NCBI GenBank assembly: GCA_026394935.1
Contig: JAPLZR010000008.1
Location: forward strand, 1 to 32,022
Length of the DNA: 32,022 nt
Direction of reading: 5' to 3'
Source of the DNA: Candidatus Woesearchaeota archaeon
Lineage (GTDB): Archaea; Nanobdellota; Nanobdellia; Woesearchaeales; ARS49
Shown here: piece by piece, positions 5,442 through 31,605 of the stretch
Position numbering within the stretch: the first letter of the stretch is position 1
How the letters are laid out: each line of letters begins with the position of its first letter
Translations under genes and position numbers: made by a program
The notes under the pieces: model-generated
Database searches by the model: none
What the model was told of the DNA's origin: nothing
The model's input: only the letters and a program-made list of their open reading frames with translations

Positions 5442-7246
5442 GGCGAAGGCACCTTCTTTTGTTGGACATTAACGCCAACTTTCTTCTTCACAACATACTG
5501 ATAATTCACAGTAGTCTTAAAACTCCTGATAGCCAAAGGAGCATTAGCCAACAAAACAGCCACATCTTTAACTTTTGTGTGAACACGAATAGTCTTAGGA
5601 GTGGTCACAGGAGATTTAAACAATTTCAAAAGAACACTGCCTTCCAATGTGCACGTCTGCTCTGCGTCTTTTCCGCCAGTACAGCCGGAAACCGGATTAC
5701 CATCCACATCTTCAATGGTCAATCCAGGAGGAACAGTAATACTAAAATTAGTAATGTTCCAAAGCTCGCCCTCCATCCAATTCCTGTCAAAAGTAATGCT
5801 TAAAGTAGGACCGAATTCCTCGCCGGCAACAAGCGCAACAGGCTGCTGACCAGCACCCATACCAATCATCAAAGGACCGCCAGTAAACTTGGCAATAGGA
5901 TTCTTATCAGCAATCTTAAACGAGTCCAACGGGTCAATCTGCTTTCTGCGCATAGACCTGACAGTCTCCTGATCCATAAAATAACTCTTCAAGAAAGCGC
6001 TCGTAATAAAATCAAAAGAAGTCTCAAGCACAATCTGAGGAGAACCCAAACCAGCATCAGAAGCATTAATCAGGCAATCAAGCTCCTGCATCTCATACTC
6101 CTCGACGGAAAAAGTGTCACGAGGCTTGATCACTCCCCTTGCAAAGTCCACGCCCTCAGGATAGCACTTAACTTTAACAATCAAATTCTCGCTAGTCTTA
6201 AACGACTCAACCCTCAACCTGGCAAAAACATCAATCTTATCCTCAAACTGAACAATCGGAGAAGTAACACCAACATTATCCACAAACACGCCCAAAGGCT
6301 TCTGACTCTGAGCTTCAACACCCATCTCATAATCACCAGTCGCAATATAAATCTGAGATTGAATTCCTTTGGCAACCTGCTGGCCAGCCTTGAAAAGAGT
6401 GTTGAACGAGTCAAACCATCCCTGGCGAACAGCATAAACAGACTCATACAACGGAGTCCCTGGCGGGGAAATCAATGAAACAGTAGTAGGCGCTAACAAA
6501 ATCGTCACAAAAAAAAGAAGGTTGACAAACAATGCAACCCATTTCAACGTATTCGGACCTTTCTGATCCGTTCTTTTAGGCCATACAGCAATGACGAACA
6601 AATAAGTTACAATCAGAAAAGTGGTCGCAAAATTAGGCAACGGCACATTCATCATAGTCTGAGCCCAAACGGAAAGCCAGAACAGGATAATACCGCCAAA
6701 CAAAACAATAAGAACAGTCAAAACCTTATTGGCAAAATCCCTTGTTTTTTCAAAAGTCCAAACCACCAGAGTAGCAGTAATACCGACTGCCAAAATAATA
6801 TTTGTCGAAGTCAGCATATTAACCGACTCCAAAAACCAAACAAGAACCGGCAATAAAAGAACAACAAAACCCTTCTTCGGCTCCTTAAAAATAACACCGA
6901 CAATCAGCGAAGCACTAGCAGAAATTAAAATCCAATTAGCTAGAGTGCGAACGCCAATAAAGCGCAAATACAAAAAGAGAAAAAAAGCAATAACAAAAAC
7001 AACACCAGGCTGAGCCCAAATCTTGCCTTTAGCCGGCTCGTAACCAGCCTGAATGGGAGCCGCCGCCATAGCGCCGCCAACAGCTGCAGCAGCCCTGCCA
7101 GTGCGGCTTTCCGCAATTCTTTCCTTCAAAGCCCTTGCCTTTTCAGCAGCGCGTTCCTTCAATTCTTTTGCCTTATCAGCCAGTCCAACAAAAAAACCAG
7201 AACCCGGCGCTATTATGTTAGCAGCCGTGGCTTTCAAATCAACCAT
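5438..7246 (-). CDS. Polytopic membrane protein with large C-terminal ectodomain
   Basis: 602 aa; N-terminal amphipathic KAKELKERAAEKARALKERIAES, several hydrophobic helices, then ~330 aa of beta-rich sequence. Confidence 0.75.
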   Translation of the reverse strand: MVDLKATAANIIAPGSGFFVGLADKAKELKERAAEKARALKERIAESRTGRAAAAVGGAMAAAPIQAGYEPAKGKIWAQPGVVFVIAFFLFLYLRFIGVRTLANWILISASASLIVGVIFKEPKKGFVVLLLPVLVWFLESVNMLTSTNIILAVGITATLVVWTFEKTRDFANKVLTVLIVLFGGIILFWLSVWAQTMMNVPLPNFATTFLIVTYLFVIAVWPKRTDQKGPNTLKWVALFVNLLFFVTILLAPTTVSLISPPGTPLYESVYAVRQGWFDSFNTLFKAGQQVAKGIQSQIYIATGDYEMGVEAQSQKPLGVFVDNVGVTSPIVQFEDKIDVFARLRVESFKTSENLIVKVKCYPEGVDFARGVIKPRDTFSVEEYEMQELDCLINASDAGLGSPQIVLETSFDFITSAFLKSYFMDQETVRSMRRKQIDPLDSFKIADKNPIAKFTGGPLMIGMGAGQQPVALVAGEEFGPTLSITFDRNWMEGELWNITNFSITVPPGLTIEDVDGNPVSGCTGGKDAEQTCTLEGSVLLKLFKSPVTTPKTIRVHTKVKDVAVLLANAPLAIRSFKTTVNYQYVVKKKVGVNVQQKKVPSP

Positions 7247-7248
7247 TT

Positions 7249-8409
7249 TTATTCCGCACGAACCTGCAGCTTGACAACATCAAGCTCAGTCAGCGGCTTG
7301 ACCTCAATATAATTATTACCCTCCCTAATCAGAGAACTAATATCCCGCTCGTACTTGTTATCACGCTGGTCAATAACCGACATTCTGCCATTAACGTTCA
7401 ATTCAGCACGCTTTGAAACCTGGTCGTCAACGAATTCCAAAGTCAAAAGGACAATTCTGTCCTTATCCAAAACGTCATTGTAAATACTGCTCTTAACATT
7501 GAAAAAGTCAATATACGCCTTAACAGGCTTCAAAACAGTACGAGCCTTAACCTGCTCAACACGATAACTACCCTTTGAAATCCTGAAAAGCAAAGTATTC
7601 TTGCCAATACGCAAATCCTCACCATACAAGTCCTGCCTGTTCGGACCCTCACAAGCCGGAGCTGCAGAATAAATAATCTTGCCGTTCAACTCAATATCCA
7701 AAACGCCAACACTCTTCTGATCACAAATCGGGTAAAAGTCCAAATAAGCAGTATCAAGATTGTCATGCTCTGTATTAGAAATCGTGAAAGTGTTAGTAGC
7801 CATCTGACGCTGAACATCAGTAATATCACCAACAACCTTAACGTCAGACAAGGAATACTTTTTCTTCGAGAAAAAGCCTCCTGTGACTGCAAATTCCAAA
7901 ATATTAGTATCCTTCAACAAAGTCTTAGGCAAGGAAACAGGAGAAGGATTCTGAACACTCACTTTATTCTCATAAATAAGCTGGCCATTCAAGAAAATCT
8001 GCAAGGCACCAGCACGCTCGGGAGCCTGGAAACCCAAAATAACATTCTCGGTATTTTCCAAATCCACAACAGGAAACACCATAGACTTTTTCTGCTCTCC
8101 AAACCAGCCCTTATTGACAACAAAAGGATTCTCCTTAGCAAGAACAACAGCATTACGAGTCTCAACCAAATAAACATTAGGAATACGATGATCAAAAACA
8201 TTCTTATCAGAAAAAGTCAGCCTGCCAGGAGCAGCATCCAACAAAGTAAGCTCTGCCACAGTAACCGACGTTGCGTTCTCGCCTTCAAGCAAAACCTGAC
8301 GTTCAGCAGGAGGCAAAAACAATATGTAAAAAATGAACAGCAAAGTAATGATGCCAATAAGCGAAGCAGCAGGATTACCGGTCTGGAACTTTTGAGCGCG
8401 CCTATTCAT
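7249..8409 (-). CDS. Single-TM membrane-anchored protein with repeated beta-sandwich-like modules
   Basis: Start taken at ATG 8409 (MNRRAQKFQTGNPAASLIGIITLLFIFYILFL), preceded by AAAAGGTGATG; the ORF-track start at 8469 would overlap the pelota promoter region. Confidence 0.75.
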   Translation of the reverse strand: MNRRAQKFQTGNPAASLIGIITLLFIFYILFLPPAERQVLLEGENATSVTVAELTLLDAAPGRLTFSDKNVFDHRIPNVYLVETRNAVVLAKENPFVVNKGWFGEQKKSMVFPVVDLENTENVILGFQAPERAGALQIFLNGQLIYENKVSVQNPSPVSLPKTLLKDTNILEFAVTGGFFSKKKYSLSDVKVVGDITDVQRQMATNTFTISNTEHDNLDTAYLDFYPICDQKSVGVLDIELNGKIIYSAAPACEGPNRQDLYGEDLRIGKNTLLFRISKGSYRVEQVKARTVLKPVKAYIDFFNVKSSIYNDVLDKDRIVLLTLEFVDDQVSKRAELNVNGRMSVIDQRDNKYERDISSLIREGNNYIEVKPLTELDVVKLQVRAE

Positions 8410-8481
8410 AAACATCACCTTTTTTGATAGAAGTACACCATATCGAATAGTATTTAAATGTTTTCTCAATTACTAGCATAT

Positions 8482-15616: not shown

Positions 15617-16129
15617 ATGATAGACATAGTGTTCCCAAACAAAAACGAGCAGGAATTCGAAGAAATGGCAAAAAAGCTCGGAATAGAACTGCTTTTCGTG
15701 TACAAAGACAACAAAAACGCAAAAGCACTCCTAGTAGAACCAAAAGACGTACGCAAAGCGCACGACAAAAAAATAATTGCAATATGCACTGCAAGCAGAG
15801 AAGCAATAGAACGAGGAGCGGATGTTGTATACGGATTTGAATTACTTGAGACAAGAGAACACACACACTACAGAGCATCAGGAATGAACCAAGTACTATG
15901 CAAGCTAGCTGCTGATAAGAAGGTCAAAATAGGATTTTCTTTTTCATCAATACTGGAAAGCTACGGGCAAAAAAGAGCGATAATAATGGGACGAATGGCA
16001 CAAAACATAATGTTCTGCCAAAAATACAAAACACCAATCAAAATAGCAAGCTTTGCAACAGAACCATACCAAATGAGAGCAGAAGCAGAACTAAAAGCGT
16101 TCTTTAAACAGTTAGGGATGACTGGTTAA
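15617..16129 (+). CDS. rnp3: Ribonuclease P protein component 3 (Rpp30 family)
   Basis: 170 aa; MIDIVFPN...ADVVYGFE, HYRASGMNQVLCKLAADKKVKIGFSFSSIL, IMGRMAQNIMFCQKYKTP. Confidence 0.82.
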   Translation: MIDIVFPNKNEQEFEEMAKKLGIELLFVYKDNKNAKALLVEPKDVRKAHDKKIIAICTASREAIERGADVVYGFELLETREHTHYRASGMNQVLCKLAADKKVKIGFSFSSILESYGQKRAIIMGRMAQNIMFCQKYKTPIKIASFATEPYQMRAEAELKAFFKQLGMTG

Positions 16130-16625
16130 GACAGGCGTCTGCCTGTTCAAAACTCGTAGCATTACGCCTACACTCACTAATCAGACTATACTCCGCAACA
16201 GCCTGCTCACAAAACTTAGAACTAGTAATCAAAGACAAATCCCTACGAGCAAGACCCCTGCAAATATCATTAGTACAAACTGCTTCATTACCGAGCACGG
16301 CATGACAAGTCCAATCATCACCACAACCAGCAAGATTTCGCTGGAGAATAGCATTACACGCTAACTCATCATCTGTTCCATTACAAACATTAACACCAAA
16401 CTTGGCAAAACAATAAGAGTTAAAAACCTCATCAGTGAGCTTGACACAATCATTGGCATTAGGCTGTTCAAGAGCCTTTAAAAAAGGAACATAAACCTGC
16501 ACATCAGCATTACAAGCCTTGATATCTTTTTCAGGAGTCCAAACAGAGGGTTTCATAGAATACCAGTAAACACCTAAACCAGCCAAAATAACTATAAAAA
16601 TAACCAAAATCACCACTTTTCTCAT
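16104..16625 (-). CDS. Single-TM, Cys-rich predicted extracellular protein
   Basis: Start at internal Met (MRKVVILVIFIVILAGLGVYWYS); 12 cysteines in the ectodomain. Convergent overlap with rnp3, divergent from the 16681 operon. Confidence 0.7.
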   Translation of the reverse strand: MRKVVILVIFIVILAGLGVYWYSMKPSVWTPEKDIKACNADVQVYVPFLKALEQPNANDCVKLTDEVFNSYCFAKFGVNVCNGTDDELACNAILQRNLAGCGDDWTCHAVLGNEAVCTNDICRGLARRDLSLITSSKFCEQAVAEYSLISECRRNATSFEQADACLNQSSLTV

Positions 16626-16680
16626 AACTCTCAATAAAGAACCAAAATATTTAAATGTTCTTACGTGTCCAATCACATAT

Positions 16681-18366
16681 ATGATTAAAAAGGGGTTTTG
16701 GGTAGTAATACTACTAGTTCTAGCAGTAGGAGTATCAGCAGTAGAGTTTCAATGGCAACTCACGCAGTACATAAGAGTTGAGCAATCAAGCGACAATTGC
16801 GATATAAATGCTAAAGATGCGCCCGAAGCTCTTAAACTGCAATCTTCTGACTGCAATATTGAAGCATTTGCAAGCATAAATCCACCTGATGATAGAGATT
16901 GGTGGTTGCAAGTAGGAGTTGCGATATTAGCTGGAGATGTAGTCAGCAATTCTGAGTGGTATGCATTTGATAATGATCATAGAGGCACGTATCAAAAAGC
17001 TGGCTGGAAAAGTGGAAAAGGTGACAGAGTAACAACATGCGCGAAGTGCTGGCGCAGGACGACTGTTAATCGTAGATATGAAACCTGCGCCGAATGGCAA
17101 AAATCAACAGTTGAAGCATATGTCAAAATACCCGGCATCAAATCAAACGTCACATTTGCAGACGGCAAAAAACCCTTAGGAACAGTATCAGACTTTGCAA
17201 AAAGATGTTATGTAACGGCAGGAACGTACACGCCTGAAACAACAAACCCAAACGTTTACATTTACATTGAGAACCAGGAAAACATTTTTGCATGCATAGA
17301 CGCAGACCAAGACAAACGATGCGATATAGATCAAGCAGCATCATGCTTACCACCTTATGATTGGAATGCAAAATGGTATGCGAAAACCGGAGACTACTGC
17401 TGCGGAGTCGACTTAAGCTACACGCCAACAACACCACCCTACTGCGAATACTACACAGACCTAACAGCAATCTGCGGAAAAGACACAGCAGGCGACTGGA
17501 AATGGGTGGCATCAGCAGTCGAAGGACAATCAAGAAAATTAGCATGTCCAACACCGATATCGTTTTTAGCAGGCGGACAGTCGAGCATTTATTACTGCGG
17601 AAACAAAAGCGCAACAGTATTTGCAAGCAACGCATTCGACTCCTTTGATAACAATAATATGCGAGAAATAGCCCATCACGAATTCATATGCACGCCAAGC
17701 ACAGCAACGATAACAGAATGCGTAGGAGACGAAGGAACATTATCAGACGGAAACAACTACAAAACAACAGGAGAATGGATAAACCAAACAGGAATACAAT
17801 TCTGCTCTGCGGAAAACAAATGGATAACAGACCTGAACGCAGACAAAAAAACCTGCATAGCAGCAAGACAAAAACAAACCTGGTCAGTAGCGTGGACAGG
17901 AGCAAAATGCTGTGGAGACCCGTTAGATGACAACACAGCAGAAGGCACGTATGAAGACAAATGGGTAGACAGCGGCGAGGGCACAGCAGGAGGATGCTAC
18001 AACAACACATTCATAGCATCAGGAGAATTTACTGACGCGGGAAGAACAATCATCAACTACAAAGGAGAATTCTACAGCTGCGGACAAAGCAAAACACTGG
18101 GCAGCATAACAACGCACGTACAACAAACCTGCGGAACACCACTGCTAAACGCAACGCTTGTAGGAACAAAACACCACATAGTATGCACTCCAGAAGGAAA
18201 CTGGATGTTCACAAACAACACAGCAACAACACAAGCCACAAGCACAACATGGTCAACATCACAAGGGTGCTGTCTAGACACGCAATGCTGGGACGGACAA
18301 GACTGCAGAAACATAGGAGAATACCAACCAATGGATGATAGAGGTTACAGATGCACAGCAGACTAA
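16681..18366 (+). CDS. Secreted Cys-rich protein, first gene of surface operon
   Basis: 561 aa; signal peptide MIKKGFWVVILLVLAVGVSA; repeated CCG/CTP-type cysteine motifs. TATA-like ATATTTAAAT upstream. Confidence 0.75.
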   Translation: MIKKGFWVVILLVLAVGVSAVEFQWQLTQYIRVEQSSDNCDINAKDAPEALKLQSSDCNIEAFASINPPDDRDWWLQVGVAILAGDVVSNSEWYAFDNDHRGTYQKAGWKSGKGDRVTTCAKCWRRTTVNRRYETCAEWQKSTVEAYVKIPGIKSNVTFADGKKPLGTVSDFAKRCYVTAGTYTPETTNPNVYIYIENQENIFACIDADQDKRCDIDQAASCLPPYDWNAKWYAKTGDYCCGVDLSYTPTTPPYCEYYTDLTAICGKDTAGDWKWVASAVEGQSRKLACPTPISFLAGGQSSIYYCGNKSATVFASNAFDSFDNNNMREIAHHEFICTPSTATITECVGDEGTLSDGNNYKTTGEWINQTGIQFCSAENKWITDLNADKKTCIAARQKQTWSVAWTGAKCCGDPLDDNTAEGTYEDKWVDSGEGTAGGCYNNTFIASGEFTDAGRTIINYKGEFYSCGQSKTLGSITTHVQQTCGTPLLNATLVGTKHHIVCTPEGNWMFTNNTATTQATSTTWSTSQGCCLDTQCWDGQDCRNIGEYQPMDDRGYRCTAD

Positions 18367-19457
18367 TACTCCTGATTCTGATACTGATTCCTGCAGTTAC
18401 TGCAGCACACTGGGAATCAGTAGAACTAAAACACAACTGGGATTTAACTTCAAAAGGATTCTGCTCACAAACAACTCAATGCCTGGTAAGAGCATCATAC
18501 AATGAAAGCCTAGACAACCAGCCAGACAAATATTGGACAGAACTAGCAAACGCAAACAGACCAAAATGCATACAAGACAAACAATACCTATCAGACAATT
18601 ACTGCGAAAACGGCAAATGGAGCTCAAGAACAAAACTCATAGCACGACAATTACTCGCAATAGCAGGAACCAACAGTTTCGCGCTATATTGCGACAATTA
18701 CCAAAACGTCCTCAATGAATACAAGTATAATACAGATTACGGAACAGTAACCACTTTCTTAGGAAAATACTGCCAAAAACCAAACGGAAGAACAGAAAAC
18801 TGCGTCAACAACATCTGCGTAATAAAATACGGAAACAAAGTAGCATTCGGAACAGCAATAAACACAAACATAAGCTCAGACAAATCACCATTACAAGCAC
18901 TAAACTACTCAAAAACAAAATGCGACGGCAAAACAAGCACAGGATACAACCCCTGCGGAGACTCAGTCTATTACAACCCTGATACTGAAAGCATAATCTA
19001 TGCTCCAGGAGTAAGCCCGATACCAGCAGTAACACAAACAGAAATAGATTACGTAGAAGACTCATATGAGAAACTAAAAGACTACACTTATGACTACGTT
19101 CACAACCCAACCGTCTGGCAATACAACTACACATACTACAACACCACACCACAATTTCAACACATCTACATAACAAAAGACGGAGAAGATTTCTTCTACG
19201 GCTTCAAACAAGAAAACATCAGCCAGCCACCAGTAAGCTATGCAGGATGGTATTACTCAAACATCGATTTGCCGGATGAAGCGTGCGACAGGTACATCAA
19301 AAGATACGACGACAGAGCAAGCTGTGAAGAGCAACCATCAGACACAGAATTCTACATAGTCGCATACAAGAAACCGCCGGCAAGCACGCTGGACAGACAC
19401 GTCAGCATCATCTACGCATGGCAGGACATGACAGGCAAAATAAGGATATACAAATGA
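18351..19457 (+). CDS. Secreted Cys/Tyr-rich protein
   Basis: 368 aa; signal peptide MHSRLILLILILIPAVTA; FCSQTTQCLV and DNYCENGKWSSRTKLIA motifs. Overlaps upstream gene by 16 nt. Confidence 0.75.
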   Translation: MHSRLILLILILIPAVTAAHWESVELKHNWDLTSKGFCSQTTQCLVRASYNESLDNQPDKYWTELANANRPKCIQDKQYLSDNYCENGKWSSRTKLIARQLLAIAGTNSFALYCDNYQNVLNEYKYNTDYGTVTTFLGKYCQKPNGRTENCVNNICVIKYGNKVAFGTAINTNISSDKSPLQALNYSKTKCDGKTSTGYNPCGDSVYYNPDTESIIYAPGVSPIPAVTQTEIDYVEDSYEKLKDYTYDYVHNPTVWQYNYTYYNTTPQFQHIYITKDGEDFFYGFKQENISQPPVSYAGWYYSNIDLPDEACDRYIKRYDDRASCEEQPSDTEFYIVAYKKPPASTLDRHVSIIYAWQDMTGKIRIYK

Positions 19458-20770
19458 AGGCACAAATCACGATATTCATCATCATAGGAATTTTGGTAGT
19501 AGTCGCATTCGGAATAACACTATACGCGGGAACCAAAATGTCAGGAAGAATAGAAACAAAACAAACAACACAAAGACTCGAACAATTAGGACTCCAGCCA
19601 TTACAAGATTACGTAAACACCTGCCTAAGCCTTGCAACAAAAGAAGGACTCAAACTCATCGGAAAACAAGGAGGAACAATCTACGCAAGCCAAGGAGGAC
19701 TAACACCAGACTACACAGACGAAAAACAATACATCACACAAGAAGAGACAAAAGTGCCGTATCTAATAATGCCGCCTAAAGGAAACGTGGGCAATACTGA
19801 CTGCAACACAGAAGAAGACTGCGAAGAAAACTGCTGTTTATTCCAATCAGAACCACCAGGATACCCCTATCCAGGATTTCCATACGCAGGAGGAGAACTG
19901 CTCTTCACAGGATACTACGGAATGAGCAAGATACCACCATTATACAAACAAACACCAACAGGAGAGAACGTAACAAACTCAATACAAGAAAATCTTGAAA
20001 GATACATCACACAAAAAACAGAAGAATGCACAAAATGGACAACATTTGAAGACAAAAACTACCAAATAACAGCAGGAACACCAACAACCTCCCTAATATT
20101 CGCAGAAAACCAAACACAATTCCAAGGAGAAAAATACATCACAATAGAACTCAACTGGCCGATAGAAATTACGACACCAGGAGGAGACAAAGCAAACCTG
20201 AAAGACTTCGCAATCAGAGAAAACGTAAGACTCGCAACAATATACTTCACAGCAAAACAAATCATAGACGCAGACGCAACAGACATATCATACATACCAG
20301 AAGACAGAGAATCATTCACAGTCACAACACTAAAAGCAGGAGAAGACAGCATAATAACGCTAAAAGACGGACAAAGCACAATAGACAACAAACCATTTGA
20401 ATTCTGGATAGCAAGAAAAAACAGAAAACCAGCACTATGGGAAATAGACACAATAGAACTTGAACAGATGACATTCCACGTAAAAGAAGACAGAGGAGCA
20501 ACCATCAAAATAGACGGCAACAAACTTATCATAAATGACATCTGTCAGGAAGCAGACAAACCAAACCCGTTCACAATAGCGCTAAACGCATCAGACCCGG
20601 ATGAAGACAATGTCGTCTATTACGTAACACCAGATGAAATACCAGGAGAAAGCGCACTCGGACTGCCATTCGGAATAAGAGTATACGCAAAGGACAACAG
20701 CGCAAATGATGCTGAATGGTTTGATTATCAAGACATAACATTACAGGTAGGACTATGCATAGAAGAATAA
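19454..20770 (+). CDS. Pilin-like / class III signal-type membrane protein with large ectodomain
   Basis: Start at ATG 19454 (ATGA overlap with upstream stop): MKAQITIFIIIGILVVVAFGITLY, then ~410 aa ectodomain. Confidence 0.75.
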   Translation: MKAQITIFIIIGILVVVAFGITLYAGTKMSGRIETKQTTQRLEQLGLQPLQDYVNTCLSLATKEGLKLIGKQGGTIYASQGGLTPDYTDEKQYITQEETKVPYLIMPPKGNVGNTDCNTEEDCEENCCLFQSEPPGYPYPGFPYAGGELLFTGYYGMSKIPPLYKQTPTGENVTNSIQENLERYITQKTEECTKWTTFEDKNYQITAGTPTTSLIFAENQTQFQGEKYITIELNWPIEITTPGGDKANLKDFAIRENVRLATIYFTAKQIIDADATDISYIPEDRESFTVTTLKAGEDSIITLKDGQSTIDNKPFEFWIARKNRKPALWEIDTIELEQMTFHVKEDRGATIKIDGNKLIINDICQEADKPNPFTIALNASDPDEDNVVYYVTPDEIPGESALGLPFGIRVYAKDNSANDAEWFDYQDITLQVGLCIEE

Positions 20771-23700
20771 TCATCTGCACAATCGTAATTTTCGCAGTCT
20801 TAGCTATATTCGTCTACGCACAAAACGTAGGATGCTGCTGCGACCCAGTACTATTCAACGGAAGCTATGACACACAAACAAACTGCGCAGCAAAAGCATT
20901 CCTCTTCATAGGACCACCACCAAACATACAAACAACCTGCAGTCAGCACTGCAATGCAACAAGACCAAGCGCAACAGCACCAAGATGCGGAGACAGCATC
21001 TGCCAAACAACAGAAAACGCCACAACCTGCCCAGCAGACTGCGCAATAATCACAGGATGTGATTCACCAAACTACAACCCAGCACCAACAAACTTCTACA
21101 TAGCACCGGTAAAAGGACAAAAAGCATTACGACTCAATTTTAATTTACCCTGCCCAGCAAACTCCATAACAATAGGAAGATGCAAAGGAGACTGCACAAA
21201 CTTCCAAACAATAGCAACAATACCACCAGCAACAACATTCAAAGATGAAGACCCAACACTTGAATTCAACACAGACTACACATACTCAGTAGTTGCACAA
21301 TACAACCTGGCAGGAAACAGCATTCCAGCAACAGCAAAAGGAAACGCAGGCGACCTGGAATGCTGGCAACAACAAGGACAATTCTGCCTAAACTACTATT
21401 CATACGACCAGTATTACGATTACCTCATAACAAACGGATACGGACAATACAGAGCAGAAGACTTTGAACGAATATTCGGAAGAACAGTAAACCTGACATT
21501 CGGAACACTGTTCAACAAAGGATACCAGTGCACAGACGCAAACAAACTAGCAGACCTAAGCCCTGCGGTAAGCTGCACAAAAAACCAATACTGCATAGCA
21601 GACGAGCAAGGACCAAGATGCGTTGAAAAAACACCATGCACAACAGGAGACCCATTCGGACTGTTTGCAACAGCAACAAGCTGTGAAACAGGACTGTTAA
21701 CAAGATACTGCTTCTATGACAAAAGCGCAACCACAGCAAACAGGTGCTACAGTTGCGACCCAAGAATGACCTGCTACGACTACAAAAGCAAAGAAACATG
21801 CGAAAGAGACAACTGCGGAGCAGGAGACTGCCAATGGAACGATGTATTCGATGATTTAGGAACAGGAGTATGCATCGACAAAAGATACAACAACTGCAAA
21901 CTCTGCAGCACAAATGGAACAAAAGGAATGGAAATAACAAAAGCGATGAGCGCAATATGGGACGTTTGCAGAGAAGAAAAAAGCGACGCGCTAAGCAACG
22001 TTTTGTACCCTTGCTTTTACGACGCGGACAGAAAAACAAGCAAAACCTGCGACGAATCAACCTGCGCAGACTACACACCACCACAATGCGGGTCGCCAGA
22101 AGGAGGAATAAAACTAAACCCTGACAACAGCATAGCAATCCCAAGCACAGACACCTGCGAAATAGGCGTATGCCAGTACAATGACATAACAGGATGCATC
22201 AAAAACGCAGACGGAAACACAGCATCAGACTGCAGGTACGGAGACAAAGCGTGCGAACAAGACCACTACCCGCCAACAACCACACTAATACCAACAGGAT
22301 ACGCAGGCAGAGTGGACTTCATCAACATAAGAATATTTGACAAAAAAAACTCAACAAGCCCACCATTGGACAACGCAGGAAAAACAGGATACAAAACATA
22401 CCTGTGCATCAAAAACGCGACAACAACATGCGATGACGCAAGAACATTCAGCATAACAACAAGCGCAACAAGACTCTCGCTCAAAAATACAGCATTAAAA
22501 GAAGGCAACCAAACATTAGGCCGACTAAAGTCAGGGAACAACACAATAGCATTCTACAGCAGAGATTATGCGAACAATCTCGAAATCATACAGGAAACAG
22601 ACATTTACGCGTGCGAAAACTGCAGTCCACCACAACTCGTAAACCTGACAGTAACAGGAGGAAGAGTAATCGGCAACAAAATATACACCTCTTCAACAAA
22701 ACCAACATTCACATTCACATTCGACGAGCCAACACAAGTCACATTCGCAGAAATAATGCGAGAAGGAGAATCAGTACAACTATCACAACTAACAACAGGA
22801 ATGACAGAAGTCCACGAATTCACACCAGTAACAACTTTGCTCGGAACATACAACTTCACAGTCAACGGGCACAACGACAAATCCATCTACTTTGACGCGC
22901 CAGAACTAAAATACCAGCTAATAGTAGACCCTGACCTCGCAGGACTCAGCATAATACCGGAAGACCAAAGCATAACAAACAAAACAACAATAGACATAAT
23001 ACTAAACTTCACAAGACCCGCAAGCCTTGACAAAGTAACACTCGTCCTTGACAATTACGCAGACCCGTACGCTGTCACAGAAATATCAAGAGACATAACA
23101 AAACTGTTCACAACAACAAACAACCAAACATTCACAGCAAAAGTCGGAAACATAACAGGAGGACAATACACAATAATAGTAGAAGCAACAGGATTCAACA
23201 CGCTTGAAATCTACAAACAAAGCACGTTCTTCGTAGCAACAGTAAAACCAGGAATAAGACTCACATACCCGACATTCGGAGTAACAGCATACTCGGTATT
23301 CAACTCAACAGTCGAAACACCAATACCAAGCGAGTGCAGATACGTATTCGACACTCCAACAGCGCCAAACGCAGCAGACTACGAATTCCTAAACACGTAC
23401 GAAGGAGCAGGAACAATACACACAACCTCAGGATTAAGCATACCATACGGCTCACAAGAAGCGCACCCACTGCACGTCTACTGCAAATTCGAACAATTCG
23501 GAATAATACAAAGAAGCTTCAGCATAACGCTCGACCCAGAACCACCAGTGCTCATCACTGCATTCGCAGAACCAGCAATCATAGCAGAACCATACATACC
23601 AGACCAGGAATTATACTCAACAACACTAAAAGCGCAAATCGACAAGCCAGGATTCTGCAAATACTCAATAGCCGCAAGCAATTTCGGCTTAATGGACGGC

Positions 23701-25509
23701 AAATTCCCAGGATACGACAGAACACCAAAAACAAGCGTTGCAGCAGACGTAAACGTAACAGAACAAAAAACATACCAGTACTGGGTAGCGTGCAAAGCCA
23801 AAAACCAGCTAACAACAGCGCCAAAACAAGTCACATTCACAGTAGACCTCACACTGCCATTAAACGTAACAAGCAGCACACCATACGGATTCGGAGCACT
23901 CAACTTCAGCATAGGAGTAGTAGCAAACAAAAGAGTATACTGCTACTTCGGAGAAAATCAGGAAGATACAACAAAACCAATGGGCGCAGGAACAGCAAGC
24001 TATGTACAAAGACAGCAAATCACAGTAACAAGTCCTGGAGAATACACGTATTATATCAAATGCGCGCACGTATCAGGAGAACAATCAGACATAATAGAAA
24101 TACCAGTATTCATCGACACAACACCGCCTGAAATGAAGGCAGTGGACGACTCAGGACTCCCAAGCGAACCAGACATAACCTGGAGCAAAAGCAAAATAAA
24201 AGTGGCATTCAGAGCAGAAGACCCTGAAAGCGGAATATCACACTACCTCATAACGCTCAAAGAAGCAACAGGAAACAAAATAATCTTCAAAGACTACATC
24301 AGCAACGTAACAACAGGAGAGCCGATATACATCTCCACAACAACAAGCGGAACTCCATTCCTTCTAACAAACGGCAAACAATACAAGTTCATCGTAAAAG
24401 CAGTAAACAAAGTAGGACTGTTAAGCGAGCCGATGGAAAGCGACGGAGTAACAGTAGACACGAGCAAAATACCGCCAACCTGCCAAGACGGAGAACAAGA
24501 CGAAGACGAAACAGATATAGACTGCGGAGGAAGCTGCGACGGCTGCTCAGAAGACAAAAAATGCAGCCTTGACGTGGACTGCACAACAAACTACTGCGAA
24601 GACGGCAGGTGCAAGTCAGCAAGCTGTGAAGACGAAGTTCTCAACGGACTGGAATCAGACGTGGACTGCGGAGGAGAGCCGTGCGAAAAATGCGAAAACT
24701 TCAAAGTATGCATTGACAGCACAAACTGCGTATCAGAATACTGCGATCTCAGGAATGAAGTATGCATAGATGCGCCGCCCTGCGCAGACAAAAAACTCAC
24801 AACAGGAGAAACAGACATAGACTGCGGAGGACCATGCGAGCCCTGCGGAGAAGGAAAAAGCTGCATAGAAAACAACGACTGCACAGAAGGAATGAACTGC
24901 ACAACAGACACAAAAGTATGCGCAGGACCAACTGCTGAAGAAGAAGCACCCGTAATGCTGGAAGAAATAACAGTAGTCGAAGAAGAAACCTCGCTAATGT
25001 GGCTGTTATACCTGCTGTTCCTCATACTCGCAGTAGGAGGAATATTAGTGGGAGCAATCATAATCCTGGCAAAAGAACGCAAAAAACCAGAAGCGCTATT
25101 CAAACCAGAAATAAAACCCGAAATGCTGAAGCCCGCAGATTTGGAAAGACTGCACAGGTTTGCAAAAAAAGAAGAAATACCAGACAAAGAATGGATAACG
25201 CTGGAAAAAGAAATCAAGAAAAAACACGTACCATACACATCCGCTCTTGAAAAACTAAGAAAAATAGCGCGCAAAGAAGCACTTTCAGAAGAACCGCTTG
25301 CAAGACTAAAAACCCTGCTCGACCACCTAAACGAGTACGAAAGAACACAAATACTAATCAAAATAAAACTATGGCGGGAAGGAAAACTCACAAAAGAAGA
25401 AATCGAAGAACTACTAAGAAAATTACGAATAACAGCAGAATACTATAAACTGCACAGAGAAGAATTCGAAAAAGAACTCGAAGAATATGGGCACAAGAAA
25501 AAACACTAA
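20755..25509 (+). CDS. Giant Cys-rich extracellular protein, C-terminal TM anchor and charged cytoplasmic domain
   Basis: 1584 aa; signal-like N-terminus, CGDSICQTTENATTCPADC motif, Ig/FN3-like beta modules, three DxDCGGxCxxC repeats, TM LMWLLYLLFLILAVGGILVGAIIIL, ~145 aa basic/acidic helical tail. Confidence 0.8.
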   Translation: MHRRIIICTIVIFAVLAIFVYAQNVGCCCDPVLFNGSYDTQTNCAAKAFLFIGPPPNIQTTCSQHCNATRPSATAPRCGDSICQTTENATTCPADCAIITGCDSPNYNPAPTNFYIAPVKGQKALRLNFNLPCPANSITIGRCKGDCTNFQTIATIPPATTFKDEDPTLEFNTDYTYSVVAQYNLAGNSIPATAKGNAGDLECWQQQGQFCLNYYSYDQYYDYLITNGYGQYRAEDFERIFGRTVNLTFGTLFNKGYQCTDANKLADLSPAVSCTKNQYCIADEQGPRCVEKTPCTTGDPFGLFATATSCETGLLTRYCFYDKSATTANRCYSCDPRMTCYDYKSKETCERDNCGAGDCQWNDVFDDLGTGVCIDKRYNNCKLCSTNGTKGMEITKAMSAIWDVCREEKSDALSNVLYPCFYDADRKTSKTCDESTCADYTPPQCGSPEGGIKLNPDNSIAIPSTDTCEIGVCQYNDITGCIKNADGNTASDCRYGDKACEQDHYPPTTTLIPTGYAGRVDFINIRIFDKKNSTSPPLDNAGKTGYKTYLCIKNATTTCDDARTFSITTSATRLSLKNTALKEGNQTLGRLKSGNNTIAFYSRDYANNLEIIQETDIYACENCSPPQLVNLTVTGGRVIGNKIYTSSTKPTFTFTFDEPTQVTFAEIMREGESVQLSQLTTGMTEVHEFTPVTTLLGTYNFTVNGHNDKSIYFDAPELKYQLIVDPDLAGLSIIPEDQSITNKTTIDIILNFTRPASLDKVTLVLDNYADPYAVTEISRDITKLFTTTNNQTFTAKVGNITGGQYTIIVEATGFNTLEIYKQSTFFVATVKPGIRLTYPTFGVTAYSVFNSTVETPIPSECRYVFDTPTAPNAADYEFLNTYEGAGTIHTTSGLSIPYGSQEAHPLHVYCKFEQFGIIQRSFSITLDPEPPVLITAFAEPAIIAEPYIPDQELYSTTLKAQIDKPGFCKYSIAASNFGLMDGKFPGYDRTPKTSVAADVNVTEQKTYQYWVACKAKNQLTTAPKQVTFTVDLTLPLNVTSSTPYGFGALNFSIGVVANKRVYCYFGENQEDTTKPMGAGTASYVQRQQITVTSPGEYTYYIKCAHVSGEQSDIIEIPVFIDTTPPEMKAVDDSGLPSEPDITWSKSKIKVAFRAEDPESGISHYLITLKEATGNKIIFKDYISNVTTGEPIYISTTTSGTPFLLTNGKQYKFIVKAVNKVGLLSEPMESDGVTVDTSKIPPTCQDGEQDEDETDIDCGGSCDGCSEDKKCSLDVDCTTNYCEDGRCKSASCEDEVLNGLESDVDCGGEPCEKCENFKVCIDSTNCVSEYCDLRNEVCIDAPPCADKKLTTGETDIDCGGPCEPCGEGKSCIENNDCTEGMNCTTDTKVCAGPTAEEEAPVMLEEITVVEEETSLMWLLYLLFLILAVGGILVGAIIILAKERKKPEALFKPEIKPEMLKPADLERLHRFAKKEEIPDKEWITLEKEIKKKHVPYTSALEKLRKIARKEALSEEPLARLKTLLDHLNEYERTQILIKIKLWREGKLTKEEIEELLRKLRITAEYYKLHREEFEKELEEYGHKKKH
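24481..24921 (+). repeat. Three tandem ~45-50 aa Cys-rich repeats within the giant protein
   Basis: CQDGEQDEDETDIDCGGSCDGC..., CEDEVLNGLESDVDCGGEPCEKC..., CADKKLTTGETDIDCGGPCEPC... Confidence 0.85.
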
Positions 25510-26005
25510 AGCACAAATCATAGGACAAATATTCATATTCATACTTGCAGGACTGGTATTCATCTTGATAGTCACATACGGGTACAAAGCAATACAATAC
25601 TTCATAGAAAGACAAGAACAAATAGTGCTCGTAGACTTCAGAACAGACCTAGAAATAGCAGTAGAAGGAGTAAAAAGAGACTACGGAACCGTACGAAAGG
25701 TAGACCTGAAACTGCCAACAAAATATTATGGAGTGTGCTTCTTTGACTACACTTCCACTGCATGCGATCCAAAAGAGTTGTCAATAGATCCAAAGCTGAT
25801 AACGCCAGGACAAACATTCAACGTCAAATGGGCAGAAGACACGTGCAAGCTCAAAAGCGCAAACGTATTCATAATACCAAGAACACAAGACTTTGACCTA
25901 CCGGATATACAAATCGATACAGGATACATCTGCATACCAAACACGGGAATAGTCACAATACGCCTGGAAGGAACAGGCAAAAGAGCAAAAATATCAGAAT
26001 GGTAA
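25487..26005 (+). CDS. Pilin-like small membrane protein
   Basis: 172 aa; MGTRKNTKAQIIGQIFIFILAGLVFILIVTYGYKAIQYF. Overlaps upstream gene by 23 nt. Confidence 0.7.
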   Translation: MGTRKNTKAQIIGQIFIFILAGLVFILIVTYGYKAIQYFIERQEQIVLVDFRTDLEIAVEGVKRDYGTVRKVDLKLPTKYYGVCFFDYTSTACDPKELSIDPKLITPGQTFNVKWAEDTCKLKSANVFIIPRTQDFDLPDIQIDTGYICIPNTGIVTIRLEGTGKRAKISEW

Positions 26006-26985
26006 AAAGGGGCATAGCTGAACAAAGTTCATCAGGTCTTTTTTCCCCTTCAGGAAAAAAAGGTTTTGAACTACAATTCCACTGGATATTTGTCATAATA
26101 GCAGGAGCGCTAATACTCGCATTCTTCTTCAGCGTGGCAAACAAACAAAGAAACCTCAGCCAGGAAAAATTGCAATTAACACTCGCAACAGACATAGAAA
26201 ACATCTTCACAGGAGCAATAGTAAGCAGAGGAACAGCACAAAAACTCCCAGTGCCGCCGCAAGGAATAGCCTTTGAATGCACAGAAGGATGCGAATGCAA
26301 ATTCAAAATAGCAAACGCAGGAAAAGACTTCGGAGACAAATCAATGTTCGCGCCAGCACTGCTACAAGGACAGGACATTGTAGTATGGTCGCTCGAACTC
26401 AAACTGCCATACAGAGTAACAAAAACACAACAACAAATGACGAGCACGAAATACGAAGAATACCAGCACACGAAATTCATACTGCTAGACGTTGAACCAA
26501 CAACACTAGATTATTCGTTCAAAAAAGAAAGCGCTAGCGCAGTAAAAATAACACCAACAGCAGTACAATTCTACACACAAGACGGACAAGAACTTGTACA
26601 AGGAGGGTTTCTCAGCTATGCAGGACTGCCATCACTCTACGCAGCAATATTCTCAGAAGACGAAACAATGTACAAATGCGGACTAAAAACCGCATTCAGA
26701 AAACTAAGCTACGTATCAAAACTATACGCGGAAAGAGCAGCAGAACTCGAAAACGAATCAGTAAACGCAGGAAAAACCTGGTGCACGTACGGAGCACCAA
26801 CAACAGGAGACGTCTGCCAATCAACAGCATCAATAATCGGTCTATTATGCAAACAACACGAAAACGCAAAACAATTGGCAGACAAACTTGATGACACTCT
26901 CATAACAGAACTAAGCACAACAAAAGAACAACTGGACAGCGCAAACAGAAACTTCCTGCAACAAAGCTGTCCGGAGATATTCTAA
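25999..26985 (+). CDS. Pilin-like membrane protein with 280-aa ectodomain
   Basis: KKGFELQFHWIFVIIAGALILAFFFSVANKQ; Cys-containing ectodomain. Overlaps upstream gene by 7 nt. Confidence 0.7.
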   Translation: MVKRGIAEQSSSGLFSPSGKKGFELQFHWIFVIIAGALILAFFFSVANKQRNLSQEKLQLTLATDIENIFTGAIVSRGTAQKLPVPPQGIAFECTEGCECKFKIANAGKDFGDKSMFAPALLQGQDIVVWSLELKLPYRVTKTQQQMTSTKYEEYQHTKFILLDVEPTTLDYSFKKESASAVKITPTAVQFYTQDGQELVQGGFLSYAGLPSLYAAIFSEDETMYKCGLKTAFRKLSYVSKLYAERAAELENESVNAGKTWCTYGAPTTGDVCQSTASIIGLLCKQHENAKQLADKLDDTLITELSTTKEQLDSANRNFLQQSCPEIF

Positions 26986-27501
26986 ATGAGAGCGCAGATT
27001 AAAATGTTTGAAACAATAGCAGTGCTCATAGTATTCTTCTTCCTGCTATTTACCGGCTCAATATTCTACTTCGCAGCACAAAAATCATCACTACAAAAAG
27101 AAAAAGTCAAAGCAAGCGAACAATACGCACTACAAATAGTACTGAAAGCACTGTACATGCCGGAACTGGACTGCTCATTCCTTGTAACACAAAAAGACAA
27201 CTGCATAGACAAGATAAAACTAACAAAACTGGCAGAACTCATGTCATCGGATGAAACAGCGCAAACAGACTACTACAGCGAATTCGGATACGCAACAATA
27301 ACAGTAAGCGAAGCATACCCCCGCCATACAAATACAACATTGTACAATAACGTACTAACAAAAACAGAGAAAATACTAGGCGTGGACAAAGAAGTGCCGG
27401 CATTCACAGCAAATATAGCAACACAAAGCCCAATATTACTGTATGACGCAATACAAGACAGCTATGCATTCGGAATAATAGAGGTAAACGTGTATGTCTA
27501 A
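26986..27501 (+). CDS. Pilin-like small membrane protein
   Basis: 171 aa; MRAQIKMFETIAVLIVFFFLLFTGSIFYF; directly abuts upstream stop. Confidence 0.7.
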   Translation: MRAQIKMFETIAVLIVFFFLLFTGSIFYFAAQKSSLQKEKVKASEQYALQIVLKALYMPELDCSFLVTQKDNCIDKIKLTKLAELMSSDETAQTDYYSEFGYATITVSEAYPRHTNTTLYNNVLTKTEKILGVDKEVPAFTANIATQSPILLYDAIQDSYAFGIIEVNVYV

Positions 27502-27979
27502 AGCACAGATGGAGATTTTTGGACTGGTCATTATCGTAATACTATTAGCAATAGGACTGCTGTTCGCCATAGTAATTCTCACAAAAACACCAACAAGAGA
27601 AGTAGAAAGAGTAAAAGAAAGCGTGCAGGCAGCAAACTTTCTCAATACGATACTAGGAACAACATCAACCTGCGGAAAAAGAACAGTAAGAGAACTCATA
27701 CAAAACTGCGCAGTAGCAAGCAAAGACTGGGTGGGAGCAGCACCATGCGATGGAGCGAATACCTGCTCACTTGCAGAAAACATGATAAAAAACATGCTAA
27801 ATCAAACACTCGGCAAATGGGGCAAAGACTACAAATTCTACATGAACGGCACAGAAGCAGTAGAACAAATAGTAATAGGAACAGACAACCCCTGCAAAGG
27901 AGAACGAGAAGGAAGCACAAGACCGGAAAAAATCAGAACAGGACTAGACATAACAGTCACGCTGCATATCTGCAGTTAA
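27494..27979 (+). CDS. Pilin-like small membrane protein
   Basis: 161 aa; MSKAQMEIFGLVIIVILLAIGLLFAIVIL; Cys-containing ectodomain. 8-nt overlap with upstream gene. Confidence 0.7.
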   Translation: MSKAQMEIFGLVIIVILLAIGLLFAIVILTKTPTREVERVKESVQAANFLNTILGTTSTCGKRTVRELIQNCAVASKDWVGAAPCDGANTCSLAENMIKNMLNQTLGKWGKDYKFYMNGTEAVEQIVIGTDNPCKGEREGSTRPEKIRTGLDITVTLHICS

Positions 27980-28872
27980 TCATTCAAAGCAAAAGTAGAA
28001 GCAGAAAAATCAGCAGTTTTCAATGCAATATGCAATAAATGGCTGAGAACAACAGCATCCTCACTCTTAACAATCAACTGCTCAATCCTGTTTTTCAGCA
28101 CTTTAAAATCATCAGACAACTCACTTAACTTAACAACATCAAACTTGTAAAACAACTCATAATACCGCCTTAACAAAGAATTAACCTCTGCAAAAACATC
28201 AACAGAAGACTTGCTCAGCTTATTGTTTGCAGACTCGCAAATGTACTTGTACTCGTCAGCAATCTTCTCCAAATTCCACATAATAACGTACAAGAAACTT
28301 GTCTTAGCAGGCTCATCAAGACCGCGCTTGTTCAAAATCCTCTCGCAAAAATTAGTCAACTGGTTATTCTGTTTTTCCAGTTCAAGCAAATTATTCAGCT
28401 CAGAATATTTCTTCTGCCTAATTAATTCAAGAGACCGGTCAGCAAGAGACAAAGTAACAAGAAAAGCCCTCCTGACAATAACCTGCAACTGGTCATCCAA
28501 CTCTTTAGCAAGAGAACGAATAATGCAAGAAGAACCAGAACGATGAACAACAGCAAAACCCAAAAACAAATCCTTCAACAACTGGTCAATAACAGAAGTG
28601 TGCTGAAAATCATTCACCTTAATCTCAATTTCATCATAACCCTTCTTGTGTAAAGAAGATAACAACCAGCGCAAAGCACGCTCAGAAGCATTAGAAACAT
28701 CAACAACACCCTTCCTCAGCATCCTCGGCTCTGCAGTAGAAACAATCAAACGAGGACCAGTCTCAACAACATCAACCTCCTCGCCCTTCTTAACACCCCA
28801 CTGCCTAACCCAATCAGTAGGCAGACTGACAACAAGCGTCTTGTCAGCAATCTGAATAACCCTGCGCTTCAT
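27976..28872 (-). CDS. AbrB/SpoVT-domain plus PhoU-domain regulator
   Basis: 298 aa; N-terminal RRVIQIADKTLVVSLPTDWVRQWGVKKGEEVDVV (AbrB-like swapped hairpin), C-terminal helical PhoU-like region. Confidence 0.85.
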   Translation of the reverse strand: MKRRVIQIADKTLVVSLPTDWVRQWGVKKGEEVDVVETGPRLIVSTAEPRMLRKGVVDVSNASERALRWLLSSLHKKGYDEIEIKVNDFQHTSVIDQLLKDLFLGFAVVHRSGSSCIIRSLAKELDDQLQVIVRRAFLVTLSLADRSLELIRQKKYSELNNLLELEKQNNQLTNFCERILNKRGLDEPAKTSFLYVIMWNLEKIADEYKYICESANNKLSKSSVDVFAEVNSLLRRYYELFYKFDVVKLSELSDDFKVLKNRIEQLIVKSEDAVVLSHLLHIALKTADFSASTFALND

Positions 28873-28884
28873 AAAAACTCCAGA

Positions 28885-28911
28885 CGATAACTTAATATAT
28901 AAATGTTATCG
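28885..28911. promoter_or_regulatory. Divergent promoter with palindromic operator candidate
   Basis: CGATAAC(28885-28891)-N13-GTTATCG(28905-28911), spacer TTAATATATAAAT containing a TATA box. Confidence 0.6.
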
Positions 28912-28926
28912 CTAAGGGGTAGTAAT

Positions 28927-30714
28927 ATGGGATTAGGAAAATGGCTGGAATTCATAATGAAGCACATGAACCAAACTGCAACACTTGCAGGACTCGCCAC
29001 TTTTCCATATACGTTCTATGAGCTGCATAAGTATGTAACAAGAAATCCGGACAACACCTTTTTGGGACAACTGAAGTACATGGCGATCCCGGTGGCTGCA
29101 AGCTTATTGACAAAATGGGGTTTACTGACATTATACTGCTATACAAGAGAGGACACGAACAGACGAACAAGAATTGGAGACAGAAAAAAAATAAAAAAAC
29201 TTTGGAAAGAGTTAGAATCAAAAGAACATCCAAAAATAACATTTGGACCTGAACAGCGCATTAATTATTCAATCGTTGATGTTTTAAGATACCATTCTTC
29301 AGATTTTCAAGAATTAACACAAAGAGCAAGAGAAACAGAAAACCCGTTTATAGCGCTTGATGCATCAATAAGAAATTTCAGTCTTAAAGCCGGTCATCCA
29401 GATGAAGGCTATACATTGTTCCGTGATGCGCTTGACTGGATGCGTAAGAGAAAGCCAAAACTAAGATGGAAAACAAAAGCATATTTCTTAAACACAAAAT
29501 TGGCATTGTATTTGTCAAAATTCCTAGAGCCTAGAGCGATAGAAAATTATATTTTAGGCGCTATTTATGAGAGCATAATTAACCCAGAACAAGCAGGGCA
29601 ATGGACGGAATTAGGAAAACTCGTTGCAGACAAATTCGGGAGCCCTCAAAAACCAGAAATGTATGTATTTCACGCCTTATTGGCAACAGCCCAGAAAAGA
29701 AGCGATGAAAAAGAAGCATGGAGAACGGCTTTTGAATTAATCCAGCAGACACTAAAACCAAAAAGGTTGGGAGAATCAAGAAATCCAGTATGGGCTGTTG
29801 AAGGCCAGGAAGAAAGCAAAAAATTCTTTTCAGGAACATTTGCGTTCAAGGGAAACACCGAGAGGTATGAGTTGGAAAATGAAGAGAAATCAGCGCATAA
29901 ACTTGAGGAAATACTTGATAAAGACGCGATCGCGCCAGAACCCATATACATAACAGAAGAACCTTACAATGAACTGTACGTTTACATAATGCGATATCTT
30001 CCAGGCGAATTGCTCTCTAACCAATTTCTAAAAGGAGACAAAAGAGGACTAGAAAAAGTCATTCCAGTGCTGGCAAGAATTCACGCAAGATACCCGACTG
30101 AAGGACTCACCAGATTAAATCTTGAAGAAAAAACTGCAAAAAAACTACAATCACTGGGAATGCAATCTGCCTTAAAATATTTCAGGCCAGTAACAGCTGA
30201 TTTGCAGGCACACCCAATATGGGCAGTAAACAAAGACGCCCACCCTGAACAATGGCAGATGCTAAACAACCCCCACACAGAAGCAAAAGTCGGAGTGCTG
30301 GATACAGAAATAAAAGAGGTCCAGCCAATAGTACTCGACATTGCGAATCTGCTGTATTATGTAGGACAATTTACAAGAGAAGAAAGAGAAAAATATGTCG
30401 GAGGGCACGTCAGCAACTTAAGAAAAGAAGGAGCAAAAATCCACGATCAAACATTTGCGCAGGCGTACGATGGAGCAAACGGACCGCTCTTAAGAGCGGT
30501 CGACAACGCAGCAATATTCAGAATGCTATGCCTCATAGAAGCATGGTCTGATCCAGACAGACCAAACATGCGCACTCAAAGAGAAAGACTTGTCAAGACG
30601 GCATTACAGACAATAGACGATTTAAAAGAACACGATACAAAATATTATTCTGAAAACGAAACGGAATACAAAGCGCTAAAGGAAAGATTCCCTGAATTTC
30701 TTAAGGCAACTTAA
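28927..30714 (+). CDS. Membrane-anchored protein with C-terminal APH-fold kinase-like domain
   Basis: Start at ATG 28927 (MGLGKWLEF...). N-terminal hydrophobic segments, helical middle, C-terminal FAFKGN (beta3 Lys), YVYIMRYLPGELL (hinge), VNKDAHPEQW (HGDxHPxN-like), VLDTE...LDIANLLYY. Confidence 0.65.
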   Translation: MGLGKWLEFIMKHMNQTATLAGLATFPYTFYELHKYVTRNPDNTFLGQLKYMAIPVAASLLTKWGLLTLYCYTREDTNRRTRIGDRKKIKKLWKELESKEHPKITFGPEQRINYSIVDVLRYHSSDFQELTQRARETENPFIALDASIRNFSLKAGHPDEGYTLFRDALDWMRKRKPKLRWKTKAYFLNTKLALYLSKFLEPRAIENYILGAIYESIINPEQAGQWTELGKLVADKFGSPQKPEMYVFHALLATAQKRSDEKEAWRTAFELIQQTLKPKRLGESRNPVWAVEGQEESKKFFSGTFAFKGNTERYELENEEKSAHKLEEILDKDAIAPEPIYITEEPYNELYVYIMRYLPGELLSNQFLKGDKRGLEKVIPVLARIHARYPTEGLTRLNLEEKTAKKLQSLGMQSALKYFRPVTADLQAHPIWAVNKDAHPEQWQMLNNPHTEAKVGVLDTEIKEVQPIVLDIANLLYYVGQFTREEREKYVGGHVSNLRKEGAKIHDQTFAQAYDGANGPLLRAVDNAAIFRMLCLIEAWSDPDRPNMRTQRERLVKTALQTIDDLKEHDTKYYSENETEYKALKERFPEFLKAT

Positions 30715-31296: not shown

Positions 31297-31605
31297 ATGA
31301 AAGGCCAAGGATTACCAATCAGCACAATTATCATCGCAGCACTAGGAATACTGGTTCTAGTCGTAATAGGCGCCATATTCGGCAGTCAAATAAGCAAATT
31401 TGGAAAGGCAGCAAGCGAATGCCAGGGAAGATGCTACAAAGCAAGCCCGCCAGTCGGAGTAATGCCAGGAGTATTTGACCCAAACAAATGCAATGCAGAC
31501 TTTGAAACAAAACTAAGCGGAGCATGGATACCAAAAAGCATGCCATCAAAAGTAGACAACCCCGGAGAGTGGAGATGCGACGAATGCTGCATTCTAACAG
31601 GATAG
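31297..31605 (+). CDS. Small pilin-like secreted/membrane protein
   Basis: 102 aa; MKGQGLPISTIIIAALGILVLVVIGAIFG, ectodomain with 5 Cys. TATA GTTTAAATA and SD GAGGTG upstream. Confidence 0.75.
   Translation: MKGQGLPISTIIIAALGILVLVVIGAIFGSQISKFGKAASECQGRCYKASPPVGVMPGVFDPNKCNADFETKLSGAWIPKSMPSKVDNPGEWRCDECCILTG

Follow-up and report, generated by a model that had tools for sequence, protein, structure and literature searches.

Subclade 4F pilus ATPases occur in nanoarchaea that have no identifiable cognate pilins, and they often carry a Cys-rich N-terminal domain (Makarova, Koonin and Albers 2016, PMC4858521). In DPANN archaea, motor genes are present yet pilins are unannotated (PMC9563170), and 'dark matter' gene islands near FlaI/TadC have been described as probable diverged pilins (Makarova, Wolf and Koonin 2019, PMC6393860). 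In Myxococcus, the pilus is primed and tipped by a complex of PilY1 with four minor pilins (PMC7541494), and in Saccharibacteria, which are bacterial episymbionts, binding to the host is aided by a type IV pilus (PMC12206443). Cultured Nanobdellota bear an attachment organelle consisting of a cone, a portal and a thin tube or filament, the proteins of which are stated to be unknown and which has been suggested to be phylum-wide (PMC11420986, PMC11104419). For the question of how DPANN archaea find and keep hold of their hosts, we describe a concrete, testable gene set: an eight-gene cassette (g1-g8) at positions 16681-27979 of contig JAPLZR010000008.1 from a Candidatus Woesearchaeota archaeon (GenBank assembly GCA_026394935.1). 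The window, the whole stretch analysed, is this entire contig (C62, 32022 bases), and the source genome (1.03 Mb, 146 contigs, 90.5% complete) belongs to a tiny and probably host-dependent archaeon.

We consider g1-g8 to be probably a minor-pilin/tip-adhesin cassette, which would form the variable part of an archaeal type IV pilus exposed at the surface, and as such a candidate for the pilins that earlier surveys failed to find. The system as a whole resembles archaeal type IV pili of the 4F-ATPase type in having a GspE/FlaI-type ATPase, a TadC-like platform, an A24 peptidase and a large surface protein alongside several minor-pilin-like genes. It differs from known archaeal type IV pili in that g1-g8 fall below every curated cut-off, that pilins and motor usually lie at separate loci, and that the cassette includes a Cys-rich giant of about 1600-2000 aa. 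With the PilY1/minor-pilin complex of bacterial type IVa pili, of which it is a likely functional analogue, the cassette shares a combination of several minor pilins and a large secreted protein; unlike that complex, it matches neither PilY1 nor the associated minor pilins at family level (PilY1 did not turn up when g1-g4 were scanned against Pfam and NCBIfam), and g4 has a C-terminal membrane anchor. The cassette also fits the general 'dark matter' pilin prediction (PMC6393860), to which we liken it by description and not locus by locus. Our literature search, which did not reach supplementary tables or subscription papers, found no description of the cassette.

Gene content, prepilin motifs and predicted folds

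The locus comprises eight plus-strand open reading frames (ORFs), each of which overlaps or abuts the next, with successive overlaps of 16, 4, 16, 23, 7, 0 (g6 and g7 abutting) and 8 nt. The members and the preceding promoter element, with an arrow marking the putative cleavage site, are:

16645-16656, plus strand: TATA-like archaeal promoter element, ~30 nt 5' of the first ATG, noted by eye
16681-18366, plus strand: g1, secreted Cys-rich protein, 561 aa, 30 Cys, the most variable member
18351-19457, plus strand: g2, secreted Cys-rich protein, 368 aa, 12 Cys
19454-20770, plus strand: g3, pilin-like protein with large ectodomain, 438 aa, prepilin-type N-terminus MKA↓QITIFIIIGIL
20755-25509, plus strand: g4, giant secreted Cys-rich protein, 1584 aa, 77 Cys, membrane-anchored
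25487-26005, plus strand: g5, small pilin-like protein, 172 aa, predicted N-terminal helix and beta head (AlphaFold2)
25999-26985, plus strand: g6, pilin-like protein, 328 aa, predicted beta domain and C-terminal helical domain (AlphaFold2)
26986-27501, plus strand: g7, small pilin-like protein, 171 aa, near-invariant Q at +1 and E at +6
27494-27979, plus strand: g8, small pilin-like protein, 161 aa, N-terminus [KR][AGS]↓QMEI

The initial annotation had proposed these same eight ORFs, and we reproduced all of their coordinates, sizes, cysteine contents and junctions, together with its account of the contents as two Cys-rich secreted proteins (g1, g2), a pilin-like protein (g3), an anchored giant (g4) and four smaller pilin-like proteins (g5-g8). 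It was also right that no pilus ATPase, TadC or prepilin peptidase gene is found within 16681-27979. From the junctions it had further suggested a probably fixed stoichiometry of the products. Because a TATA-like element lies 5' of g1 and no real gap precedes any later gene, g1-g8 are likely expressed as a single operon transcript, which would fit a leaderless mRNA. Scans of the window for sigma-70 promoters and terminators, which are ill-suited to archaea, gave hits at about shuffle level.

By eye, the N-termini of g1 and g2 are ordinary Sec-type signal peptides, and in many relatives the region matching g2 is part of a larger Cys-rich secreted protein (about 500-1100 aa). An alternative, longer start for g3 exists at 19418; alignment of relatives favours 19454, giving MKAQITIFIIIGIL. 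At its C-terminal end g4 has one transmembrane helix followed by a charged cytoplasmic tail of ~140 residues, and it shows a weak fn3 match (E 0.0026) under the Pfam cut-off. Nothing in Pfam and NCBIfam scans of g1-g8 reached a curated cut-off, and Pfam scans of every member of the g5-g8 alignments yielded no common family, only chance-level or sub-cut-off matches; a match of g8 to DUF7288 (E 0.0064, sub-cut-off) is a weak lead. The initial annotation had called this its best candidate for an undescribed system, and at the level of families the lack of any curated one that fits g1-g8 agrees with that view; the set nevertheless belongs with archaeal type IV pili, and 'categorically undescribed' is too strong because diverged DPANN pilin islands have already been noted in general terms (PMC6393860).

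At the pattern level, g3 and g5-g8 fit the class III signal peptide, with a basic residue, then A/G/S, then a hydrophobic segment. The site is clearest in g8, where K/R occupies -2 in 57/57 aligned members, A/G/S occupies -1 in 54/57, Q occupies +1 in 52/57 and E occupies +3 in 52/57, as counted by a script that misplaces the cleavage site in some rows. The motifs of g5-g7 resemble that of g8 and are noisier, with [KR][AG] preceding the hydrophobic stretch in most members of g5 and g6. AlphaFold2 models of g5 and g6, built on alignments of 57 and 65 sequences, are confident and pilin-like in layout: g5 is predicted to have a helix at residues 2-55 and a beta head (predicted local distance difference test, pLDDT, 93.8), and g6 a helix at 2-56, a beta domain and then a C-terminal helical domain (pLDDT 89.7).

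Conservation across the phylum

Relatives of the cassette genes are conserved together, and the neighbourhood analysis recovered the order g4-g5-g6-g7-g8 repeatedly. In a search with g3 the best full-length relatives came from the same genus and family, and nearly all of 20 neighbourhoods of g3 relatives showed g2-g3-g4 followed, where the contig reaches, by g5-g6-g7-g8 on the same strand, commonly bordered by the same flanking genes. Matches to g3 were found in 85 of 96 relatives; many of these are confined to the N-terminal segment of other proteins, and we rejected the g3 search alone as a cassette marker for its lack of specificity. Scanning the g6 alignment against GTDB species genomes instead gave 109 confirmed loci, of which 80 were retained (L058-L137); relatives that carry a name are mostly Woesearchaeota or Nanoarchaeota. 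Among these 80 loci, many of them on truncated contigs, g6 was present in 80, g4 in 71, g7 in 68, g5 in 66, g8 in 64, g3 in 38, g2 in 26 and g1 in 8, with all of g4-g8 present in 45. Neighbouring cassette genes were always on the same strand where both partners were present, and pairs overlapped or lay no more than 15 nt apart in 19/24 cases for g2-g3, 25/35 for g3-g4, 43/59 for g4-g5, 45/66 for g5-g6, 48/68 for g6-g7 and 59/63 for g7-g8, these counts being approximate since start codons were chosen mechanically. The linkage of the cassette genes is far beyond chance.

Across 279 genomes sampled from the phylum (Woesearchaeota/Nanoarchaeota-type DPANN), the g6 profile matched 220, and among good-quality genomes 177 of 220. 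From these locus and genome counts we take g4-g8 to be the core and g1 and g2 to be lineage-variable front genes. The g7 profile matched 7 of the 59 genomes without g6, two of them strongly. The g8 profile, run on the same 59 together with four positives (G000, G100, G141 and G120), gave 10 matches, comprising all four positives and 6 of the g6-negative genomes. In the two genomes with strong g7 matches (G145 and G224), g8 adjoins g7, and we therefore count both as overlooked g6 cases and not as true absences. To judge from these profiles, the cassette genes are largely present or absent together. We rejected the idea that g6 marks the whole phylum, since entire families, including f82 and f98, are without it; assembly gaps account for some g6 absences, and those of whole families such as these look real, with the g6, g7 and g8 profiles all finding no match in the f98 genomes (G159, 605,887 bp; G181, 668,961 bp; G298), which are similar in size to those of cultured Nanopusillus and Nanobdella and may be from such organelle-bearing species. 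Median identity of relatives to the window proteins was 45% for g7 and 43% for g8, compared with 31% for g1 and 35% for g2.

A complete-looking g4-g8 cassette was also found on a contig titled Candidatus Aminicenantes bacterium (L137). We did not accept it as a transfer of the cassette to bacteria, and take the contig to be probably misbinned and archaeal.

The pilus motor and its links to the cassette

The possibility that the genome has no pilus machinery was rejected: outside the cluster, where the initial annotation had suggested looking, an ATPase and a TadC-like gene are located on contig C7 and a prepilin peptidase gene on contig C140. The C7 ATPase (L005 9122-11371) is the single strong T2SSE match in the genome, above the cut-off, and among its PDB relatives are CpaF, FlaI and 2oap, an archaeal-type GspE entry that bears the name type II secretion system protein. 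Its N-terminal part contains several cysteines, a feature in common with 4F ATPases that was noted by eye only. A second T2SSE match, to an ORF of ~610 aa on C30, is weak and sub-cut-off, looks by eye like a PIN-domain ATPase, and was not counted as a motor. The TadC-like gene adjoins the C7 ATPase gene, as it also does in relatives, and matches T2SSF with an E-value of 5.5e-4, under the Pfam cut-off. The peptidase is the one A24 prepilin peptidase found, with Peptidase_A24 above cut-off and FlaK as the nearest NCBIfam model, sub-cut-off. About 1.5 kb beyond its gene, C140:14154-14645 (L006 8155-8646) encodes a 164-aa protein with an archaellin/type IV pilin N-terminal segment (E 0.0012 for the pilin N-terminal domain, just under cut-off), which is conserved in three relatives and is a candidate for the major pilin.

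Beside the ATPase gene, at L005 11485-15007, are genes for two coiled-coil proteins (153 and 208 aa) and four proteins with multiple transmembrane segments (193-211 aa), none of which gave a convincing Pfam or NCBIfam match where tested; relatives of several of them recur near the ATPase across the phylum.

Two genomes place the cassette in direct synteny with motor genes. In G100, ATPase-g3-g4-g5-g6-g7-g8 lie on one strand, interrupted by a lone unrelated ORF on the opposite strand between g3 and g4, and the ATPase is 64% identical to that of C7; in L114, g4-g8 directly follow a TadC-like gene that shares 51% identity with the one on C7. Indirect evidence comes from a further ordered set of about eight genes for pilin-like proteins, cluster B, which is located 3' of g8 in many Woesearchaeota and was found within 8 kb after g8 in 30 of the 38 loci with enough flank, a count that uses profiles B1, B5, B6, B9 and B10 only, as cluster B profiles drifted toward g7/g8. 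Cluster B also comes after ATPase-TadC in other orders; this arrangement, with its genes in unchanged order, was seen in G141 and G120, and in part in G270 and G256. Among the loci with cluster B are L141, L150, L170, L111 and L090, and the gene after it is in many cases one that has an OB-fold-like relative (C7_5529). On the strength of the G100 operon, the L114 TadC-like gene and, indirectly, cluster B, we link the cassette to a type IV pilus motor. In the source genome, a search with the single cluster B profile A6, run with no positive control and with the window contig ending at 32022, returned no match; by eye, one protein near the end of the window resembles the small B4-type proteins of cluster B:

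31297-31605, plus strand: 102-aa protein with prepilin-like N-terminus MKGQGLPISTIIIAALG

Function and alternative explanations

The initial annotation had envisaged a disulfide-rich, pilin-based filament or adhesion complex, and this idea is supported by the prepilin-like N-termini of g5-g8, the g5 and g6 models, the conserved cysteines, the conservation of the unit and the motor context. For the minor-pilin/tip-adhesin cassette, we infer a course of cleavage, assembly, tip placement, adhesion and host-cell binding. After membrane insertion, g3 and g5-g8 would be cleaved after [KR][AGS] by the C140 A24 peptidase and assembled by the C7 ATPase and TadC-like platform. A priming/tip complex of minor pilins would result, and the filament, made of a separately encoded major pilin, would be built on it. 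The g1 and g2 proteins and the g3 ectodomain, probably disulfide-stabilised, are the best tip-adhesin candidates because they are the least conserved parts, and g4, held by its C-terminal helix, may keep the complex in place or steer it across the cell envelope. Given the presumed lifestyle and the divergence gradient toward g1 and g2, host attachment by the cassette is plausible; the gradient could also reflect ordinary relaxed constraint on secreted proteins.

A broader proposal, which we put forward tentatively and would not expect to prove correct, is that the cassette is the host-contact device of most Woesearchaeota-type archaea, a pilus-derived, disulfide-stabilised structure with a fast-changing tip that sets host specificity and does the job of the Nanobdellota organelle, with which it has the phylum in common by name. 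The gene set on offer consists of g4-g8 behind g1-g3 or other Cys-rich proteins, is present in most of the phylum and shows motor synteny in at least two genomes. It brings profiles for four new pilin-like families and named targets to a group with almost unannotated surface biology.

Several observations weigh against a pilus cassette. In most genomes, the source genome included, the cassette is not adjacent to motor genes. The ATPase was found in 276 of the 279 phylum genomes, and in about 20% of sampled genomes it is present while g6 goes undetected, which means that the motor can do without the cassette in some genomes. Glu at +5, which is canonical in bacterial pilins, is absent from the pilin-like proteins. 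Profile searches of PDB sequences found no relative of g5, g7 or g8, and Foldseek searches of the g5 and g6 models against the PDB returned nothing at E <= 0.001, leaving their predicted pilin-type layout of a long N-terminal helix and globular head with no structural match there. The major pilin is a candidate, and the case is built on genes and models.

Of the alternatives, the one that survives best, which we nonetheless think unlikely, is a structure like the Sulfolobales bindosome (Bas), a short membrane-bound scaffold that would use the pilus ATPase, platform and peptidase to display Cys-rich proteins for nutrient or surface binding with no extended pilus. Both have small pilin-like proteins served by an ATPase, and weak matches connect g7 with BasB (E 0.0014) and the C7 ATPase with BasE (5.2e-16); g4 is membrane-anchored instead of released, and the operon is without a major pilin, as this explanation would have it. 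Both matches are sub-cut-off, however, and that of g7 is far below (18.6 bits against a cut-off of 230) and spans just the N-terminal helix region, residues 10-50. The cassette differs from Bas further in that its proteins did not qualify as a BasA/B/C set, no sugar-binding proteins were found in it, and Pfam recognises no substrate-binding domain in g1-g8; a further conserved pilin-like gene is present on C140.

A type II secretion-like pseudopilus, serving as a short piston to export g1 and g2 or other Cys-rich proteins, strikes us as quite improbable. Several distinct pilin-like proteins are indeed co-encoded with secreted proteins, and the large helical domain of g6 may recall a large minor pseudopilin. 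Against this, the Sec-type signal peptides of g1 and g2 and a single membrane, which we assume as usual for archaea, would make a piston unneeded, and the g5 and g6 models match no PDB pseudopilin. We give even less weight to a DNA-uptake (competence) pilus, in which the filament would catch extracellular DNA and g1-g4 would be structural or DNA-binding: DPANN genomes are often described with pili plus competence or DNA-import functions (PMC9938205, PMC9563170), but the window cluster contains no competence gene (no genome-wide search for such genes was made), and large, fast-changing Cys-rich proteins fit adhesion better. Hardly credible is a set of S-layer or envelope assembly proteins with signal-anchor helices and a superficial resemblance to pilins, for while short hydrophobic N-termini are plentiful in these genomes and Foldseek did not confirm the pilin fold, the [KR][AGS]↓Q motif is conserved, the genes share an operon with the pilus ATPase gene (G100) or with a TadC-like gene (L114), and cluster B adjoins ATPase-TadC.

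Elsewhere in the window, conserved neighbours 3' of the cassette (27976-30714) encode a 298-aa protein on the minus strand, with an AbrB-like N-terminus, a weak doc_partner match and a PhoU-like appearance by eye, and a 603-aa protein with no NCBIfam match. A second surface-protein cluster on the minus strand (2580-8469) comprises three Cys-containing lipoprotein-like proteins of ~310 aa each and membrane-anchored proteins of 602 and 406 aa, and look-alikes of several of these were seen by eye 3' of the A24 peptidase gene in G141 (L150 10568-19998). Just 5' of g1, the minus strand at 16104-16676 encodes a 190-aa Cys-rich membrane-anchored protein (12 Cys) divergent from g1, and several relatives have a Cys-rich gene for 146-187 aa at the equivalent position.

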